Source: an uncultured Bacilli bacterium (GTDB lineage Bacteria > Bacillota_I > Bacilli_A > RF39 > UBA660). From it: 32,634 bases of DNA. The position numbers were made by a program, and so were the translations under genes. The notes below the pieces were generated by a model. That model saw only the letters and a program-made list of their open reading frames with translations. It was not told where the DNA came from and did no database searches. Shown here in pieces: positions 8,519-28,335 of this stretch. The DNA is taken from assembly GCA_944358545.1 (NCBI GenBank), contig CALVRJ010000015.1, positions 1 through 32,634 of the forward strand, given 5' to 3'. The number at the start of each line of letters is the position of its first letter. Position 1 is the stretch's first letter.

Positions 8519-9568
8519 ATGTCAAAAATTGATATTGTTGGGAAATGGGATTTAAATAATAATAACTGGTATGATCCATATACCAAAGAAGAACGAGGTC
8601 GCTCTCTATCTTTAGCAAGTTTAAAAAGCGTTAAAGTAGATGATAGTTATAATTACGAATATTTTATCTTTTGCCCAGGAACTCGTCTTGAAGACGAATC
8701 TAAAGATTCTAAAACCATTTCTGATGGTCCCGAAAACATCGATAAAGCAATAAAATTCTTTGGCAAACTTGATAAAAACATTCAAATGAAACTATTGCTT
8801 TTAGATGCCGATGCTCCTTTAAAAGAAGAAAGTATCTTCCTAGGAAATCATATTGAAAGTATTTCCTCTAACCCTCATATAAAATCTATTAACATCATTG
8901 CTCATTCCAAAGGAGCCGCTTTAGCATTTGATAGTTTAAAATACATTAGAAATCCTCTTGCTCTCGAGAAAACCAATTTATTTACAACAGCCGTTCCATT
9001 TAAGGGAACCATTATGGCTTCTCCTTTATATTTATATCCAAGGCTAGAAGAAATCATCAAAAGTAAAATATCTAGTGAAATTTTAGTTCAAAAATTAATG
9101 GAAGGTTTTGCCAAAATATACTCTGGTATTTCTAGTAATTCACATATGGACTATGATATTGCCATTCCTGGTGGTGCCTCACAAAAATACGATAAATCAT
9201 TTATTGAAAACCTTTTATCTGAAGAAAACATCAACATGATTTCTAAAATTAATTCCTACCATAATATTTATACAGGAATCGAAAGTGATACCTTTAGAAA
9301 TTGCCTAAAAGATGGTGATTTAACCGGCATGGGCCTTTGCTTAATAGATGATATTGTTTTTACTGAAAAATCAGATGGTATGGTTCCATTATCATCACAA
9401 AAAGCCTTAGAAGCTTTAAACCCTCAAGGTCTAAAACTTCATCAAATCAAATCATCAACTAATAATATTCTTGGAAACACTAGAACAGCTAATAAAGTAT
9501 TTACCATTATCAATGATGAAATAGATGAAACTAAAGAAAAAGCTTACTTAAAAAAATTACAAAAGTAA
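8519..9568 (+). CDS. Uncharacterised alpha/beta-hydrolase-like protein
   Basis: A 349-aa protein with no signal peptide, so probably cytosolic. I do not recognise a named family. It shows a lipase-type nucleophile elbow, IIAHSKGAALAF, with Ser130 in an A-H-S-x-G context. A later SDGMVPLSSQ (Asp286) and LKLHQIKSS (His308) fit the acid and base of a Ser-Asp-His triad in order and spacing. The early segment FCPGTRLED could sit at the oxyanion strand. The DGMVPLSSQ block resembles lipases and PGAP1-like hydrolases. Substrate is unknown. It has its own consensus promoter and its own terminator, so it is a single-gene unit between folD and smc. Start ATG 8519 has AAGGA upstream. The hydrolase fold is inferred from motifs only. 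Confidence 0.6.
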   Translation: MSKIDIVGKWDLNNNNWYDPYTKEERGRSLSLASLKSVKVDDSYNYEYFIFCPGTRLEDESKDSKTISDGPENIDKAIKFFGKLDKNIQMKLLLLDADAPLKEESIFLGNHIESISSNPHIKSINIIAHSKGAALAFDSLKYIRNPLALEKTNLFTTAVPFKGTIMASPLYLYPRLEEIIKSKISSEILVQKLMEGFAKIYSGISSNSHMDYDIAIPGGASQKYDKSFIENLLSEENINMISKINSYHNIYTGIESDTFRNCLKDGDLTGMGLCLIDDIVFTEKSDGMVPLSSQKALEALNPQGLKLHQIKSSTNNILGNTRTANKVFTIINDEIDETKEKAYLKKLQK

Positions 9569-12594: not shown

Positions 12595-13848
12595 ATGAAT
12601 AAAAGAATAGTTACTATAAACGGCGTTAATTATGTATTTGTGTTAGATGGAAAAACGGTTTCTGCCTTTAAATATAAAAATGGGATGCCCCAAATAATTG
12701 ACCCTCATTTCGCAACTAATTCCATCATGAATCAAACTATAATCGAAACAATACAGTTGATTAAAGATGAATTAAAAAAAGAAATCATAAGTAAAAAATA
12801 TACTAAAACAGATGACTATCATAACGAATTTCAAAAACGCCTACATGATACAGAGATTCCAATCTTAAAAAAATTTGGTAAAATTGACCTCACTAGAAGA
12901 AAAGAGTATGGTGAAGCTTTAAAAGAACTAGATGAAACATTTAAAATGACTTTAGAAAACAAAGAAACCAAAAAAGACGCCGTCGAAAAAAACATTGATG
13001 TTAACTTACAAACATTGTTTAAAGAAAATGGCATCACCGAATATAAAGTTAGTAAATCAGGTTCCGTTATAACTTATATGAAAGACGGTATTCCTCATAC
13101 AATTAATCAAGTAAATCCAGATACAAATATCTATGAAATCATTATTCAAAATATCGAATTTGATAAAATGAATAATCGTGATGAAATAGACAAAAGTATT
13201 AAAGAAGCGATGGAAACACAAAGACGAACAGTTTTACATGAAAATGATACTGTTGCTATTTCTAAAGCTGAATATCCATTAGATCAAATAGCTGACTATC
13301 TTAAGGAAAATTATCACATTAAAAACATATATGGCGTAAGACAAACTGATAAAACTATAACTGATGGTACAATCATGGTTGACTTCGGTGAAGGATTTAA
13401 ACCAGTATTTGTCAAATTAGAAGATAGTGGTAAAACCAAAATATCATTTGGCGAAGCAAAACAAATTGATAATAATCACAATGTTACCCCGCAAAAAGCA
13501 AGCAATGCTGATACTAAAAAGCAAGACGACATAAACCAAAACGTCGATGAATATATTAAAGATAACACTTTAAATAGTATTGAAGAAAAAGAAAAAAATG
13601 GCCAAGCTATAACCCAAGAAGAACAAGATATTCTTGACAAATATAAAGAAAGCGATAAAGAAAACCCAGAAGAAATTGTTAATGATGGTCCACAAAACGA
13701 GCTTACTAAAGCGAAAGTCAAAAAATTAATTCCCACTAAAAATCAGTTTGCTAAAGCTGCATTTGCTAATCCTTTGTTCTTAACCTTTATAAGTGGAGCA
13801 ACCTTTGGTCTTGGAGTCATATGTATTATAGAAACAATTTTTAATTAA
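12595..13848 (+). CDS. Unknown tail-anchored protein downstream of smc
   Basis: A 417-aa protein of unknown function. It starts 14 nt after the smc stop with GGAAGGAAATG upstream and no promoter in between, so it is likely co-transcribed with smc. Residues 1-60 and about 145-180 look like two related segments (VTINGVNYVFVLDGKTVSAF and YKVSKSGSVITYMKDGIPHT, each followed by an NxIMNQTI or NIYEIII helix), suggesting an internal duplication. A charged, helical middle part follows, then an Asn/Lys/Glu-rich linker (about 290-385), and a single C-terminal hydrophobic helix FLTFISGATFGLGVICIIET. There is no N-terminal signal, so the bulk would face the cytoplasm in a tail-anchored topology. I recognise no family. 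Confidence 0.75.
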   Translation: MNKRIVTINGVNYVFVLDGKTVSAFKYKNGMPQIIDPHFATNSIMNQTIIETIQLIKDELKKEIISKKYTKTDDYHNEFQKRLHDTEIPILKKFGKIDLTRRKEYGEALKELDETFKMTLENKETKKDAVEKNIDVNLQTLFKENGITEYKVSKSGSVITYMKDGIPHTINQVNPDTNIYEIIIQNIEFDKMNNRDEIDKSIKEAMETQRRTVLHENDTVAISKAEYPLDQIADYLKENYHIKNIYGVRQTDKTITDGTIMVDFGEGFKPVFVKLEDSGKTKISFGEAKQIDNNHNVTPQKASNADTKKQDDINQNVDEYIKDNTLNSIEEKEKNGQAITQEEQDILDKYKESDKENPEEIVNDGPQNELTKAKVKKLIPTKNQFAKAAFANPLFLTFISGATFGLGVICIIETIFN

Positions 13849-14012: not shown

Positions 14013-15200
14013 ATGAGAAGAATAAGAAGACATAGAAAAAAGAAACTAAATAAAATAATAGTTTTATCCGCATTTTGTTTATTATTTGTTATAACAGCCG
14101 GATATGCAGCTTTTTCAACAAATATAAGTTTACATGTTAAAGGAAATATATTAGAAGGTACAAGAGTAATCCAAGTCTGGGATGAAAATAGCAAGGCTGA
14201 TTTCCACTCAGATTATTATAAACAAAATATTTTAACTATAACATTTTTAAATAATAATAATGTACCAGAAAATGCCGTAGAGAGCTGGAATGTATCCGAA
14301 GATAAAGAGAGAGGAACCGTAAAAGCTTGGGTAGTATCAAATTCAAGTGATTCATCAAAGTATGATTTATATATTGGAGCTAAAGGAAAAGTAATAGCTA
14401 ATGAAGATAGTGGATATGTATTTTATGATTTTAGAGGGGTTAAAGAAATAAACTTTGATAATAATTATGATACAAGTAACGCAGTAGATATGACTAAAAT
14501 GTTTATGAATTGTACAAATTTACAAGCTTTAGATTTAAGTACCTTTGATACACGTGATGTAACAAGTATGTATGCGATGTTTTGTATGTGGGATGGCCTA
14601 AACAACATTGGATTAGAAAGCAAAATTGAATATATTAAATTTGGAAATAATTTTATTACTGACAACGTTCAAAATATGAGAAGTATGTTTGCAGGCCTTC
14701 GAAAGTTAAAAGAATTAGACGTTAGTAACTTTAATACATCTAACGTTACGACAATGTATCATATGTTTACAGAATGTGATGGTTTAAAGGAATTAGATTT
14801 AAGTAGTTTTGACACATCCAAAGTAACCGATATGGAACAAATGTTTGGAGAAAGCAAAAATTTAGAAACACTAGATTTAAGTAATTTTAATACAACTAAT
14901 GTCACAAATATGAAATGGATGTTTCAAGGATGTAGTAATTTAACAAATTTAAATATACGTAGCTTTAATACAAGCAAAGTAACAGATATGGAAGGTATGT
15001 TTGCTAAATGCTCGAATATTATAGAATTAGATTTATGTTCCTTTAATACATCTAACGCAGTAAATATGAAATGGATGTTTGGAGAAACACCTAACTTAAA
15101 ATTAATTAAAGTAAGTTCTAATTGGACAACAAATAATGCAGATACGCAAGACATGTTCGTATACAGTAATATATCATCTGTAACTACCGGGCAGTGTTAA
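14013..15200 (+). CDS. BspA-like surface protein with DUF285 leucine-rich repeats
   Basis: A 395-aa secreted or membrane-anchored protein. A very basic N-terminus (MRRIRRHRKKK) is followed by one hydrophobic segment (about residues 16-34) ending in AGYAAFSTN, an N-terminal signal/anchor common in Firmicute surface proteins. From about residue 150 it consists of roughly 24-residue repeats of the form M-xx-MF-xx-C-xx-L-xx-LDLS-x-F-NTS-x-VT, the DUF285/BspA-type repeat also abundant in Mycoplasma surface proteins. About nine copies are seen, the last degenerate. No LPxTG motif or second membrane helix occurs at the C-terminus, so anchoring would be by the N-terminal helix. A role in adhesion is plausible for the family. 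RBS AGAGGTGA is 7 nt before ATG. The promoter spacer carries G12. Confidence 0.85.
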   Translation: MRRIRRHRKKKLNKIIVLSAFCLLFVITAGYAAFSTNISLHVKGNILEGTRVIQVWDENSKADFHSDYYKQNILTITFLNNNNVPENAVESWNVSEDKERGTVKAWVVSNSSDSSKYDLYIGAKGKVIANEDSGYVFYDFRGVKEINFDNNYDTSNAVDMTKMFMNCTNLQALDLSTFDTRDVTSMYAMFCMWDGLNNIGLESKIEYIKFGNNFITDNVQNMRSMFAGLRKLKELDVSNFNTSNVTTMYHMFTECDGLKELDLSSFDTSKVTDMEQMFGESKNLETLDLSNFNTTNVTNMKWMFQGCSNLTNLNIRSFNTSKVTDMEGMFAKCSNIIELDLCSFNTSNAVNMKWMFGETPNLKLIKVSSNWTTNNADTQDMFVYSNISSVTTGQC

Positions 15201-15239: not shown

Positions 15240-15245
15240 TATAAT
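15240..15245 (+). promoter_or_regulatory. -10 box of the ABC-F gene
   Basis: TATAAT at 15240-15245 is followed after 4 nt by the ribosome binding site GAGGTGA; the ATG is at 15262. The -35 is weak (TTAAAA-like). Transcription would begin almost at the binding site, giving a 5' UTR of about 10 nt. Confidence 0.55.
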
Positions 15246-15261
15246 GGAAGAGGTGATTTTT

Positions 15262-16857
15262 ATGTTACAAGTTAAAAATTTAAGTTTAAGATTCGGAAAA
15301 AGAATATTATTTGAAGATGTAAACCTAGAATTTAAACCACATGAATGTTATGGTGTTATTGGTGCCAATGGTGCTGGAAAAAGTACATTTTTAAAAATAT
15401 TAACTGGCGAAATCGAATCCACAACCGGTGAAGTAATAAAAGATAAATATGAAAGAATATCTGTTTTAAAGCAAAACCATAATGCATATGATGAATATAC
15501 TGTATTAGATACTGTAATAATGGGAAACAATAGATTATATCAAATAATGAAAGAAAAAGAAGTATTATATATGAAACCCGACTTCAATAATGAAGACGGC
15601 ATTAAAGTTGCTGCTCTCGAAGCCGAATTTGAATCGTTAAATGGCTGGGAAGCCGAAAGTAATGCTGCTATTCTTTTATCTGGTTTAGGATTAGATAATT
15701 CATATCATAATAAATATATGAAAGAATTAACCGATAAAGATAAAGTTAAAGTATTACTTGCTCAAAGTTTATTTGGAGACCCAGATATTTTACTATTAGA
15801 TGAACCGACTAATGGCCTTGATTTAAAAAGTAAAATATGGCTTGAAAATTTTCTCTTGGATTTTAAAGGAACTATTATACTTGTTTCCCATGACCGTCAT
15901 TTCTTAAATAAAATATGTACATACATGGTCGATATAGACCGTCAAAAAATAAAAATGACCGTTGGAAACTATGACTTCTGGTATCAGACAAATGAACTTA
16001 TGCAAAAGCAAATAAAAGAAGCTAATAAGAAAAAAGAAGCTAAAATAAAAGAATTAGAAAGCTTTATAGCTAGATTTTCTGCAAATGCATCAAAATCAAA
16101 ACAAGCCACATCTCGTAAAAAATTACTTGACAAAATAACACTAGATGAACTTATTCCATCATCTAGAAAATATCCATATATTAACTTTGAATACGAAAAA
16201 AGACTAGGCAAAGAAATAATAACCATAAGCAAAATAAACGTTACCATCAACGGCAAACAAATTCTCAAAAATTTTACTTTAAATATAAAACCAGGCGATA
16301 AAATAGCTTTAATTGGTGAAAATGAAATCGCTAAAACAACGCTTTTCAAAGTCATCATGGGTGAAATAACCCCAGATAGCGGTGAAATAAAAATAGGCTC
16401 AACTGTCATCATTTCATACTATCCTAAAAACCACGATAAATACTTTACCGAAGACGAAAATTTAATTGAATGGCTTCGCAAATATTCTGAAAACAAAGAA
16501 GATAGCTTTGTTCGTGGCTTTTTAGGTCGAATGCTATTTTCTGGTGAAGAAACCCTTAAAAGTGTTAAAGTATTATCCGGTGGTGAAAAAGTCAGATGCA
16601 TGTTTGCCAAAATGATGCTTAATAAAGGCAATGTCCTATTATTAGATGAACCAACTAATCATCTAGACATCGAATCAATTACCTCATTAAATAATGGATT
16701 ATCTAAATTTACTGGTCCAATTGTTATTTCAAGCTTTGATACTGAATTAATTAGAACTGTTGCCAACCGTTTAATTGATATTCATGAAGACGGAACATAC
16801 AAAGACAAACAAATGACATATGATGAATATTTGGAATATTTAGAAAAAACAAAATAA
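15262..16857 (+). CDS. ABC-F ATPase, YkpA/YbiT type, with one degenerate ATP site
   Basis: Cytosolic twin-NBD ABC-F protein (531 aa) without membrane helices; the family acts on ribosomes (translation factors, some antibiotic protection). The linker ANKKKEAKIKELESF...SKSKQATSRKK and the whole layout resemble the YkpA/YbiT group. NBD1: Walker A GANGAGKST (34-42), signature position LTDKDK (156-161), Walker B DILLLDEPTN, switch VSHDRH. NBD2: Walker A position GENEIAKTT (352-360), intact signature LSGGEK (438-443), Walker B NVLLLDEPTNHLD, switch position SSFD (Phe492 for His). Thus the site built from Walker A1/B1/His1 plus signature 2 is intact, while the other is degenerate apart from Walker B2. 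I start at 15262 (GAGGTGATTTTTATG); an ATG at 15244 lies in the promoter. Confidence 0.9.
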   Translation: MLQVKNLSLRFGKRILFEDVNLEFKPHECYGVIGANGAGKSTFLKILTGEIESTTGEVIKDKYERISVLKQNHNAYDEYTVLDTVIMGNNRLYQIMKEKEVLYMKPDFNNEDGIKVAALEAEFESLNGWEAESNAAILLSGLGLDNSYHNKYMKELTDKDKVKVLLAQSLFGDPDILLLDEPTNGLDLKSKIWLENFLLDFKGTIILVSHDRHFLNKICTYMVDIDRQKIKMTVGNYDFWYQTNELMQKQIKEANKKKEAKIKELESFIARFSANASKSKQATSRKKLLDKITLDELIPSSRKYPYINFEYEKRLGKEIITISKINVTINGKQILKNFTLNIKPGDKIALIGENEIAKTTLFKVIMGEITPDSGEIKIGSTVIISYYPKNHDKYFTEDENLIEWLRKYSENKEDSFVRGFLGRMLFSGEETLKSVKVLSGGEKVRCMFAKMMLNKGNVLLLDEPTNHLDIESITSLNNGLSKFTGPIVISSFDTELIRTVANRLIDIHEDGTYKDKQMTYDEYLEYLEKTK

Positions 16858-16894
16858 AAAGCTATAATGAAAAATAAAATCATTATAGCTTTTT
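16856..16894. terminator. Bidirectional terminator between ABC-F and AssT-like genes
   Basis: A 15-bp perfect inverted repeat, AAAAAGCTATAATGA (16856-16870) with its complement (16880-16894), and a 9-nt A-rich loop. It ends in T on one side and starts with A on the other, so it can serve both convergent genes. It overlaps the ABC-F stop and abuts the stop of the minus-strand gene. Confidence 0.9.
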
Positions 16895-18604
16895 CTAATA
16901 GAAAATAACATATTTATTTAATTTATAAATAGTTCCATTAATTCTTATATAAATATAATATTTACCTTTTAATCCATCCTCATTAACATACATTGACGTA
17001 ACGATTCTCTTTTTATTACTATCAGGAATTTGAATATCATAAGTTTTCTTACTTAAAACATTATCTAAAATAAGCTCTACATCATCAGATTTCTTAAATT
17101 CACCAGTAAATTTAAGCCCATACACATCTTTATAAAAACTTAAATTATAATCCTTAATAACACTCTCATCTTCCCTAGAAAAGAGTAGTAAATGATCTGA
17201 AGTAGTCGGTGTCTCTCCTAAAACACCAAGTCTCGTTCCTTGAACACCTGTACTATAAATATCATTCGCATAAAGAGGCATTATTTTTGCATTGTATACC
17301 GGAGAATTAATCGTTAATAACGTTTCTAACGAATCGTTAACCATTAAAACATTATTGCCCTGAGTAACTAAATAACCATTATCCACGCTATCTATATAAG
17401 CATCCTCAGACCCATCAAGGGAAATCCTATTCGTTCTTTCGAAAGACTTATCATCGCGATTAATCTTATATGTATTAAGTTCTCTATAATCGCCATCTAA
17501 ACTCGTCACCACAAATTCATCTGAATTAATCAAAGTAACCGTTTCTGGTTTATTTGGATAATCTTTCCCATCTAATTTATACTTGTTAAATTTTTCTAAA
17601 TCATGTTTACTGATAATCCAGTTAATTTCTGAAGAACCATAATCTATATTAATAATCATATCATTTTTATAACCTGAAACAGTCAAAGAATTCGTTGGAG
17701 CATCATAAGCGAGTGAAGTAATTTCAAACCAGTTGCCTTTATGATTGCCACCTAAAACTTTATTTAAATCAATAGTTTTAACAATATTACCACTAGCTCT
17801 GTCTATTTCTACTATGTAATCTTCTCGCGAATCACGGCCATTATTAGACGCTACTAGTAAATTACCATTACTAAATTCAATCATATTATGATGATATCCA
17901 CCAGGAATATTGTATTCATAATAAACCTTGCCAAGTAAGTCCATCTCTACTAAACCAATACTGTAATAAGGTTGTCTTACTAATTTGTTACTACCTAAAA
18001 TAATATGACCATTATTAAGTCTTTGAATATCCCATTTATAATCTCCAGTTAAATACCATCTAACATCACCATTCTCGTCATAAGCAGCCGTATACCCTTT
18101 GTCTTCTGGTGTCGTAAAATAAAACTGCCCATCACTTAAATCATTAGACGTAAAAGTTGCCTTTGTAAAATCATCGGGTAGGGGATTAGTTTTAATCGTT
18201 AACTCTTTACTTGTTCCACTAGCCTTAATTATAACCTTGTTATCATAATCTGGATAAAGTCCATAAATAGGTAAAATATGTATTTTATTAGGTACAAAAG
18301 TATGCGTAATATCTGCCGCCCCATCCTTACCTTTAACCGTTACTGTAACTGAAGTTAAATCCTTAGTTTGAAAAACAACTAAAGCTGTAAGGGGTGAATT
18401 ACCGTATAAATTCAAAATAACATTCGGATTATCTAAAGTATAATTTGTATTCGATAAATTTGTATTCTCCAAATCTCTCTGATAAGTAAGAATATCCGTC
18501 TCCGTTTCAATTGGTGTCGATTTCTCAATATACTCGTAAATAAAAATTGAAGCTGCAAAAGTAACTACAATTAACAAAACGTATTTAAGAATAATTTTTT
18601 TCAT
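16895..18604 (-). CDS. Arylsulfotransferase (AssT)-like protein lacking catalytic residues
   Basis: A 569-aa protein, the length of E. coli AssT (PAPS-independent arylsulfate sulfotransferase). The N-terminal helix KYVLLIVVTFAASIFIYEYI would anchor it outside the membrane. An N-terminal beta domain (about 55-140) and a six-bladed propeller follow; GDVRWYLTGDYKWDIQRLNNG, MDLLGKVYYEYNIPGGYHHN and SNGNLLVAS are typical of the family. His238/His239 match one active-site His. The other positions do not: the DWxHxNS motif reads NWFEITS (291-297), the SGRHQ motif reads SGYKN (310-314), and the position of the transiently sulfurylated His in xQHAxxxLxNG is Glu354 in KPETVTLIN. I therefore predict no sulfotransferase activity. 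It follows def by 9 nt with an AGGAGG site and is likely co-transcribed with it. Confidence 0.8.
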   Translation of the reverse strand: MKKIILKYVLLIVVTFAASIFIYEYIEKSTPIETETDILTYQRDLENTNLSNTNYTLDNPNVILNLYGNSPLTALVVFQTKDLTSVTVTVKGKDGAADITHTFVPNKIHILPIYGLYPDYDNKVIIKASGTSKELTIKTNPLPDDFTKATFTSNDLSDGQFYFTTPEDKGYTAAYDENGDVRWYLTGDYKWDIQRLNNGHIILGSNKLVRQPYYSIGLVEMDLLGKVYYEYNIPGGYHHNMIEFSNGNLLVASNNGRDSREDYIVEIDRASGNIVKTIDLNKVLGGNHKGNWFEITSLAYDAPTNSLTVSGYKNDMIINIDYGSSEINWIISKHDLEKFNKYKLDGKDYPNKPETVTLINSDEFVVTSLDGDYRELNTYKINRDDKSFERTNRISLDGSEDAYIDSVDNGYLVTQGNNVLMVNDSLETLLTINSPVYNAKIMPLYANDIYSTGVQGTRLGVLGETPTTSDHLLLFSREDESVIKDYNLSFYKDVYGLKFTGEFKKSDDVELILDNVLSKKTYDIQIPDSNKKRIVTSMYVNEDGLKGKYYIYIRINGTIYKLNKYVIFY

Positions 18605-18613
18605 AAAAACCTC

Positions 18614-19162
18614 CTAAATTAAACGAAGTTCACTATCTAAATAAAACGGTTTCTTTTTATTTATATGATCATAGAATAAAACCCCATTCAAATGATCTAT
18701 TTCATGTTGGAAAATAATAGCCAAATACTCTCTAGCTCTAATCGTCATCTTATTTCCATCCTCGTCATAACCACTAACCGTTATTCTTGCATACCTTGGC
18801 ACATGCCCCTCGACATCTCTATTTACACTAAGACATCCTTCGCCTTCCTCTAAAGCAACCATTTCTTCAGAATGACTTATTATCTTCGGATTTACCATTA
18901 CATAATTTTTAAACTTTCCTTTTTCATACTCGTAAACAATTACGATAATTCTAGCATTAATTCCTATTTGTGGAAAAGCCAAAGCCGTTCCTGGCCTTAA
19001 ATCGTACTTTTTCGCATACTTCTCAATTTGACTGTAAGTTATATGCTTAATTGACCTTTCAATTAAATCTTTATACTCCTTAGAAAGTGGAAATTTTACT
19101 TCCCTACATGTTGACCTAATTAATTTTTGCTTTTCATCAACCATCTTAAGTGGTTTAAACAT
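18614..19162 (-). CDS. def: Peptide deformylase
   Basis: Metalloenzyme removing the N-formyl group from nascent proteins, 182 aa, most like the YkrB-type enzymes of Bacilli (for example NPKIISHS and VPRYARITV). Motif 2 EGCLS (108-112, metal-ligand Cys110) and motif 3 QHEIDH (152-157, ligands His153 and His157, catalytic Glu154) are intact. Motif 1, normally GxGLAAPQ, reads GTALAFPQ (58-65): the second Gly is Ala and one Ala is Phe, while the Gln is retained. Start ATG 19162 has GGAGATGA upstream on the minus strand. Its TAG stop overlaps the ribosome binding site of the AssT-like gene. Confidence 0.93.
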   Translation of the reverse strand: MFKPLKMVDEKQKLIRSTCREVKFPLSKEYKDLIERSIKHITYSQIEKYAKKYDLRPGTALAFPQIGINARIIVIVYEYEKGKFKNYVMVNPKIISHSEEMVALEEGEGCLSVNRDVEGHVPRYARITVSGYDEDGNKMTIRAREYLAIIFQHEIDHLNGVLFYDHINKKKPFYLDSELRLI

Positions 19163-27460: not shown

Positions 27461-27814
27461 ATGATTAAGCAAGATAATTTCCAGTACGCTCTAATCCCTA
27501 TAAGTTATTTAAATTACCAAAAAAATGCCAAATATAAAATATTTACTTTAAAAGCCAAAATAATGTATCACTTATTCAAAAAAATATCGTTTAAAACTTT
27601 AAAAATAAATAGTATAGCTGTTAAAATTGAAGCATCTGATAAACCATATATCGAAGAAGTGCTTACTAAAAATAAAATTGGTTTAACTAAAAAATCAGGT
27701 TACAAAGTCTATTTATCTGGTGACATAATTTATAAAATTTGTACCAAGGACGAAATATATAAAATTATAAACAGTTTAAAATACAAAATGCGGATAACTA
27801 AAGTATTTAGTTAA
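27461..27814 (+). CDS. Small unknown basic protein
   Basis: A 117-aa, Lys- and Ile-rich soluble protein of unknown function. Support for it being real: a near-consensus promoter, a good ribosome binding site (CGGAGGAATC before ATG 27461) and its own transcription unit. There is no signal peptide or membrane helix. The C-terminal half (KKSGYKVYLSGDIIYKICTKDEIYKIINSLKYKM) looks like alternating strands and a helix. Its stop overlaps by 3 bp with the stop of the convergent membrane-protein gene, and no terminator separates the two. Confidence 0.65.
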   Translation: MIKQDNFQYALIPISYLNYQKNAKYKIFTLKAKIMYHLFKKISFKTLKINSIAVKIEASDKPYIEEVLTKNKIGLTKKSGYKVYLSGDIIYKICTKDEIYKIINSLKYKMRITKVFS

Positions 27815-28335
27815 ATAATATATGTATTAATTCCAAATTTATTACTCGTTCTATCGAAAAAAACATCGTTAATAAATGGAAAATAAGTTAAAATACCTAA
27901 AATTATATAAATAATTATAAGTGCGGTTAAAGCTAAATAATCGAGTTTTAAATTATTTGCCAAAATTAAATGATAAAAGATAAACTGATTAAAAATAGAA
28001 ATAATTATTAGAAAAATCAAATCTAATAAAAAATGAAAGTCAAAATAAAACCAAGCCGGCATATAAAATAAGATAAACAACAAAATATTAAACATAATTG
28101 TTAAAAAAATACTTAAAACAATATTTGAGGTTTTTATATGATTTTCTTCCAAAATAAAAGATTGAATAATTTGGCTTATCAAAACTCCACTAATAACTAT
28201 TTTAACCGTTTCAAACAAACTATTATTTACTGGGAAAAATATACTCGTTATTTGGCAAGGAAAAGCTCTATAAAAACCAAAAGCCAGAAAAAAACTCAAA
28301 ATCGTAATTACAAAACCAATTTTTTTAAACGTCAT
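27811..28335 (-). CDS. Small integral membrane protein, DUF6512-like
   Basis: A 174-aa polytopic membrane protein with about five or six hydrophobic helices. Helix 1 is followed by FPCQITSIFFPVNNSLFETVKI, which resembles the FxVNESxWEHxKL motif of small Firmicute membrane proteins annotated DUF6512. That assignment is from memory and tentative. ATG 28335 has AAGGTGG upstream on the minus strand. The function is unknown. The gene is divergent from dnaG and convergent, with overlapping stops, with the 117-aa gene. Confidence 0.65.
   Translation of the reverse strand: MTFKKIGFVITILSFFLAFGFYRAFPCQITSIFFPVNNSLFETVKIVISGVLISQIIQSFILEENHIKTSNIVLSIFLTIMFNILLFILFYMPAWFYFDFHFLLDLIFLIIISIFNQFIFYHLILANNLKLDYLALTALIIIYIILGILTYFPFINDVFFDRTSNKFGINTYII

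Follow-up and report, generated by a model that had tools for sequence, protein, structure and literature searches.

The closest described system is the arylsulfate sulfotransferase AssT of Escherichia coli (EC 2.8.2.22), which is transiently sulfated on His436 and whose active site is lined by His252, His356, Asn358, Arg374, and Thr501; after more than 40 years the natural substrate of the AssTs is still unknown (PMC13426309). Here, we analyzed a 32,634-nucleotide (nt) stretch of DNA (contig CALVRJ010000015.1, hereafter "the window") from a genus of uncultured gut Bacilli, which carries on the minus strand, at 16895-18604, a gene encoding a protein of this family, referred to below as pseudo-AssT. 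The closest named sequence record (81% identity) is that of Candidatus Coprosoma intestinipullorum, and Coprosoma corresponds to the GTDB genus CAG-822 of the order RF39 (PMC8035907). The reading that we prefer, with a probability of roughly 0.7, is that pseudo-AssT derives from an AssT gene linked to def (the peptide deformylase gene) and is a maintained non-sulfotransferase, that is, a membrane-anchored extracellular protein composed of an Ig-like domain and a beta-propeller. A working def-linked arylsulfate sulfotransferase would have lost its catalytic machinery in the ancestor of Ca. Coprosoma, and the gene would then have been retained for a non-sulfotransferase role at the outer face of the membrane. 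The features of the gene to which we refer are the following:

16895-18604, minus strand: catalytically degenerate AssT-family protein, 569 amino acids (aa), recognized from Pfam, AlphaFold2, and structural matches
within 16895-18604, minus strand, residues 2-27 (approximately): N-terminal signal anchor
within 16895-18604, minus strand, residues 61-140: Ig-like domain
within 16895-18604, minus strand, residues 150-449 (approximately): beta-propeller
within 16895-18604, minus strand, residues 450-569 (approximately): C-terminal beta domain
17888-17896, minus strand: codons of Tyr237-His238-His239; of the catalytic site, only the HH pair is retained (His252 region of AssT)
17714-17734, minus strand: NWFEITS, codons 291-297; His356 lost, Glu294 in pseudo-AssT
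17660-17677, minus strand: SGYKND, codons 310-315; Arg374 lost, Tyr312 in pseudo-AssT
17534-17554, minus strand: NKPETVT, codons 351-357, standing in place of W-x-QH436-A-A-M

A MAFFT alignment was made of 36 orthologues found in the genus and of 41 close homologues that are intact, the latter comprising 24 proteins from other genera (type A) and 17 representatives of the other full-length paralogue (type B). The counterparts of His252, His356, Arg374, and His436 are each present in all 41 intact homologues. Among the residues expected in a functional arylsulfate sulfotransferase, the genus orthologues keep the counterpart of His252 (H239, 36/36), lack both His356 and Arg374, involved in the coordination of the sulfuryl group (0/36 each), and have no histidine at the position of the nucleophilic His436 (0/36); chance is excluded as the source of this loss (0/36 vs. 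41/41). The whole HH pair (His252 plus the preceding His) is found in 36/36 clade orthologues and 41/41 intact homologues, and its neighbours Y237, E243, and N248 are also invariant in the clade. An earlier note on this DNA, based on the sequence alone, had proposed a pseudo-enzyme of the arylsulfotransferase family on the basis of the motifs NWFEITS, SGYKN, and HH238-239; all three are indeed present, the HH pair falls on the His252 segment, and phmmer aligns NWFEITS with N353-WAH356VN358S and SGYKN with SSR374HQ of E. coli AssT. The lost positions are variable within the clade: that of His356 is occupied by Gly (26/36), Lys (7/36), Glu (1/36), or other residues, and that of Arg374 by Tyr (22/36), Ser (6/36), Thr (3/36), or others. 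At the position of Asn358 the window protein has Thr296, and 29 of the 36 orthologues have Asn.

The His436 region reads N-x-P-E/Q in the clade, with P353 invariant and position 354 occupied by E in 23, Q in 9, and other residues in 4 of the 36 sequences. Whether Glu354 replaces His436 depends on the alignment. MAFFT sets E354 on His436, whereas profile-profile alignment (hhalign), which concurs on the loss of His356 and Arg374, opens a gap over the QHAAM stretch. The assignment of E354 as the counterpart is therefore not robust, but the absence of a His at this place is firm. As to the "Glu-type" clade that the note proposed to look for, a clade does exist (see below), but Glu is not its mark. 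A substitute nucleophilic Glu was also considered and ruled out, since Glu354 occurs in 23/36 sequences only and its placement depends on the alignment. A histidine at another catalytic place would have spoken against the proposal of the note; the only histidines conserved in the clade are H109, H200, H238, and H239, each of them common in intact homologues too, and in the alignment of the 36 orthologues none of them coincides with the position of His356 or His436, which rules out a relocated catalytic His. The residues that have become fixed in the clade (D98, S129, Y189, N254, M316, P350, P353, and others) are mostly aromatic, proline, or aliphatic, and no new conserved catalytic-looking set (His/Glu/Cys) was found among them.

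The gene is under purifying selection. Indeed, the ratio of nonsynonymous to synonymous substitution rates (dN/dS) ranges from 0.065 to 0.142 in nine clade pairs and from 0.043 to 0.182 for the intact homologues (Nei-Gojobori method, several pairs having a high dS), and 142 columns are near-invariant across the 36 clade sequences. The open reading frame (ORF) runs from an ATG to a TAA, with 569 codons and no internal stop; the note had given the intact frame of 569 codons but not the strand; a recent pseudogene or a sequencing error is ruled out by the 36 orthologues and by the dN/dS values. Of the columns invariant in intact proteins, the clade retains 20/22 in the Ig-like domain, 38/68 in residues 141-290 (the first part of the propeller), and 4/56 in residues 336-445, where His436 would lie; the blade that once held the catalytic residues now belongs to the faster-changing portion of the protein. 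Constraint has moved away from this blade in the clade. The catalytic residues are thus absent across an orthologous group kept by selection, as expected of a pseudoenzyme, and in this respect the proposal of the earlier note is well supported.

The descent of pseudo-AssT from the AssT family is supported by its domains and fold. Pfam matches were obtained with Arylsulfotrans (PF05935) over residues 158-335 (E 5.6e-37; 128.1 bits, more than 100 bits over the cut-off of 24.2) and with the Ig-like N-terminal domain Arylsulfotran_N (PF17425) over residues 62-134 (E 6.8e-18, 65 bits), and E. coli AssT (3elq/4p04) is the sole significant PDB sequence match (phmmer, E 4e-14). In the AlphaFold2 model, computed with the 36 orthologues as input (predicted local distance difference test (pLDDT) 89.4, predicted template modelling score 0.85), an Ig-like domain is followed by the AssT beta-propeller fold. 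The comparison with AssT suggested by the note gave 3elq/4p04 as the top structural matches (Z 27.4, 384 residues, 3.0 Å), followed by Streptomyces Cpz4 (Z 26), with unrelated propellers far lower (Z 18). Residues 48-449 of the model correspond to AssT 3-571, so the protein is co-linear with AssT as far as the fold is concerned; the term "full length" has to be qualified, since about 75 residues are absent in comparison with its 640-690 aa relatives, among them the FDNGNN segment, which comes after the His436 region in the relatives, is near-invariant in intact proteins, and is deleted in the clade. Pseudo-AssT thus combines the AssT fold with a membrane anchor at the N-terminus and an extra beta domain at the C-terminus; because its N-terminal helix has no lipobox and the family is a secreted one, the protein should be exposed at the outer face of the membrane, both the Ig-like domain and the propeller lying outside. 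The model of an intact paralogue was weaker (pLDDT 74), and no claims are based on it.

As regards distribution, orthologues of pseudo-AssT are found in 37 of the 44 Ca. Coprosoma species genomes, and the 36 alignable ones form a single clade (Shimodaira-Hasegawa-like approximate likelihood ratio test (SH-aLRT) 97, and 100 in another tree that included 18 of these sequences). Since the catalytic set is common to E. coli AssT, types A and B, and distant paralogues, the simplest reading of the sequences is that it was lost in the ancestor of the genus. The horizontal gain of an already inactive gene is unsupported, as no inactive AssT of this type was found outside the genus among the 243 family and 337 order genomes sampled (the order-level matches listed are all from one family). 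The genome of the window encodes three other PF05935 proteins, all with intact catalytic residues, which the note had missed. A recent duplication of one of them (L001) is ruled out, since neither L001 nor its orthologues are linked to def and all of them cluster with the intact proteins.

The genes and signals adjoining pseudo-AssT are the following:

18614-19162, minus strand: peptide deformylase gene (def), directly upstream of pseudo-AssT on the same strand, with a 9-nt gap containing AGGAGG
16856-16894, minus strand: terminator-like hairpin with a 15-bp stem and a U run (-16.8 kcal/mol, z -6.4), between the ABC-F and pseudo-AssT genes
15244-16857, plus strand: ABC-F ATPase gene, converging on the pseudo-AssT gene

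The def gene at 18614-19162 is the genome's only PF01327 gene. It lies directly upstream of pseudo-AssT in all 35 clade loci with upstream sequence, at a spacing of 8-11 nt (two values of -10 derive from an upstream start choice), and it precedes 23 of the 24 type A genes, at a distance of no more than 16 nt in 20 cases; no def linkage is seen for type B. In the def tree the sequences from the genus group together (support 84), in agreement with vertical descent. Because the def linkage is shared with type A and def is a single, grouped gene, pseudo-AssT is most simply the positional orthologue of the intact def-linked AssT, a relationship that had escaped the note, and the enzyme apparently lost catalysis in place. 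The tight def-AssT pair, usually 8-16 nt apart, is conserved over many genera of the family (18614-19162 in the window; L060-L084).

Some observations on the surroundings can be added. The ABC-F ATPase, which falls under the curated cut-offs of all the NCBIfam models listed, adjoins pseudo-AssT in many genomes of the genus. A PARCEL-repeat (DUF285/TIGR02167) surface protein is encoded beside the ABC-F gene (14013-15200, plus strand), and PARCEL-repeat fragments also occur near pseudo-AssT in L033 and L034. Two ORFs on the plus strand (8519-9568, 349 aa; 12595-13848, 417 aa) have no Pfam match and are located between the core genes rpoB, rpoC, folD, and smc.

A question concerns the role for which such a protein might have been kept. 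A protein that has lost the nucleophile and two of its basic helpers should be unable to transfer sulfuryl groups by the AssT mechanism; in particular, the PAPS (3'-phosphoadenosine 5'-phosphosulfate)-independent reaction would have disappeared, because the covalent sulfo-His presumably cannot form. That the protein is still a sulfotransferase working with altered residues, for which the overall fold and the one retained active-site His might be invoked, thus appears very hard to credit. If the funnel instead hosted another kind of enzymatic chemistry (e.g., hydrolysis or a lyase-type reaction) based on the invariant His238-His239, this would be in agreement with the retained fold and with the invariance of the pair and of Y237, E243, and N248; however, the pair is equally invariant in intact AssTs, so that no new role is needed to explain it, a new His/Glu/Cys group is lacking among the newly fixed positions, and the blade that was formerly catalytic changes faster than much of the protein. 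The "new chemistry" mentioned by the note therefore finds no positive support, and we consider it quite unlikely. Many pseudoenzymes are regulatory or structural partners of active paralogues, and a heterodimer of this kind might be suggested by the three intact paralogues in the window genome and by the homodimeric state of E. coli AssT (PMC13426309). However, pseudo-AssT is the sole PF05935 gene in nine genomes of the genus, four of which (G005, G038, G040, and G041) are 91-93% complete, and its operon partner is def and not an AssT, which makes this role distinctly improbable. A binding or scaffolding role may, with less certainty, be favoured over the regulation of an active AssT, since the nucleophile and helpers are gone and only a few positions have newly become invariant, most of them of kinds not typical of catalysis. 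It is possible that a small ligand is bound in the retained funnel around HH238-239 or, alternatively, that a protein or an envelope polymer is bound on the propeller or Ig face. A bolder version, in which the HH-only funnel either hosts a different, so far undescribed reaction or serves to bind one particular gut metabolite or envelope polymer, the gene having become in place, in its operon with def, a new surface receptor or enzyme shared by the genus, is speculative and in our opinion unlikely.

Seven of the 44 genus genomes have no pseudo-AssT gene. In five of these def was found, and in four of the five the converging ABC-F gene follows within about 60 nt, with no pseudo-AssT remnant at the def/ABC-F junction of these four, as expected of a clean loss. 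Such losses, scattered over the def tree, might suggest a decaying relic; on the other side stand the dN/dS of about 0.1 in all nine pairs, the 142 near-invariant columns, and the retention of the operon position and ribosome-binding site, and decay appears extremely improbable. Given purifying selection and the genomes in which it is the sole AssT, yet also the scattered clean losses, pseudo-AssT is useful but dispensable. Some points do weigh against a maintained, non-sulfotransferase pseudo-AssT. Given the seven genomes without it, the gene is not essential throughout the genus; the G040 orthologue carries a stop codon close to its end; the genomes are metagenome-assembled, and the missing other AssTs may reflect incompleteness. 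Catalytic loss is deduced from homology, and a ping-pong enzyme rebuilt on other residues might in principle exist; moreover, "binding" is what one assumes by default of a propeller that is maintained but has no catalytic residues.

If the reading of a maintained pseudo-AssT is correct, the genus offers a natural case of the passage from enzyme to pseudoenzyme in place, in the same operon slot, with intact counterparts in sister genera and over dozens of species. Pfam-based surveys of gut sulfation capacity would count pseudo-AssT as an arylsulfotransferase, though it is probably inactive, and a member that keeps the scaffold without the chemistry could point to what AssT surface proteins bind. 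We found no paper pairing "arylsulfotransferase" with "pseudoenzyme", which is weak evidence, as subscription papers were mostly outside the search.

Other AssT-like proteins of the same bacterial family extend this picture. L087-L094 (400-460 aa) share the anchor, the Ig-like domain, and the C-terminal domain with pseudo-AssT and have no catalytic residues, but they form a separate clade (SH-aLRT 99), have lost the HH pair and much of the propeller, and are not beside def. Further degenerate proteins (L096-L099, L101, and L106) have long, unsure branches. On account of this separate empty clade and of the further degenerate proteins, it seems that members of the family have lost catalysis while keeping the anchored scaffold on more than one occasion. 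A homologue of a 174-aa ORF of the window (27811-28335, minus strand) lies beside the AssT-like genes of L088, L090, and L094, and also beside that of L038. The long AssT-like proteins L102-L105 have counterparts of Arg374 and His436 and the HH pair, whereas the place of His356 is taken by Trp, by another residue, or by a gap; they may carry a partial active site.

Among the systems of known structure, Streptomyces Cpz4 (PDB 9kf4, 9kf6) shares the propeller fold (Z 25-26 over 300 residues) but, according to its depositors, is a sulfotransferase acting in caprazamycin synthesis, and a structure of the reaction intermediate is available. E. coli AssT (PDB 3elq, 3ets, 3ett, 4p04-07) shares the Ig-like domain, the beta-propeller, and the His252 counterpart; in comparison with it, pseudo-AssT lacks His356, Arg374, and His436, has a shortened catalytic blade, and possesses an N-terminal helix anchor and an extra C-terminal beta domain of about 120 residues. 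The type A AssTs (L060-L084), which are linked to def and come from other genera of the family, share its operon place, domain order, anchor, and C-terminal domain, with an identity of about 39-43% over the whole protein and of 50-57% when only the first 340 residues are compared, and differ from it in the complete catalytic set present in all 24 and in some 75 more residues.
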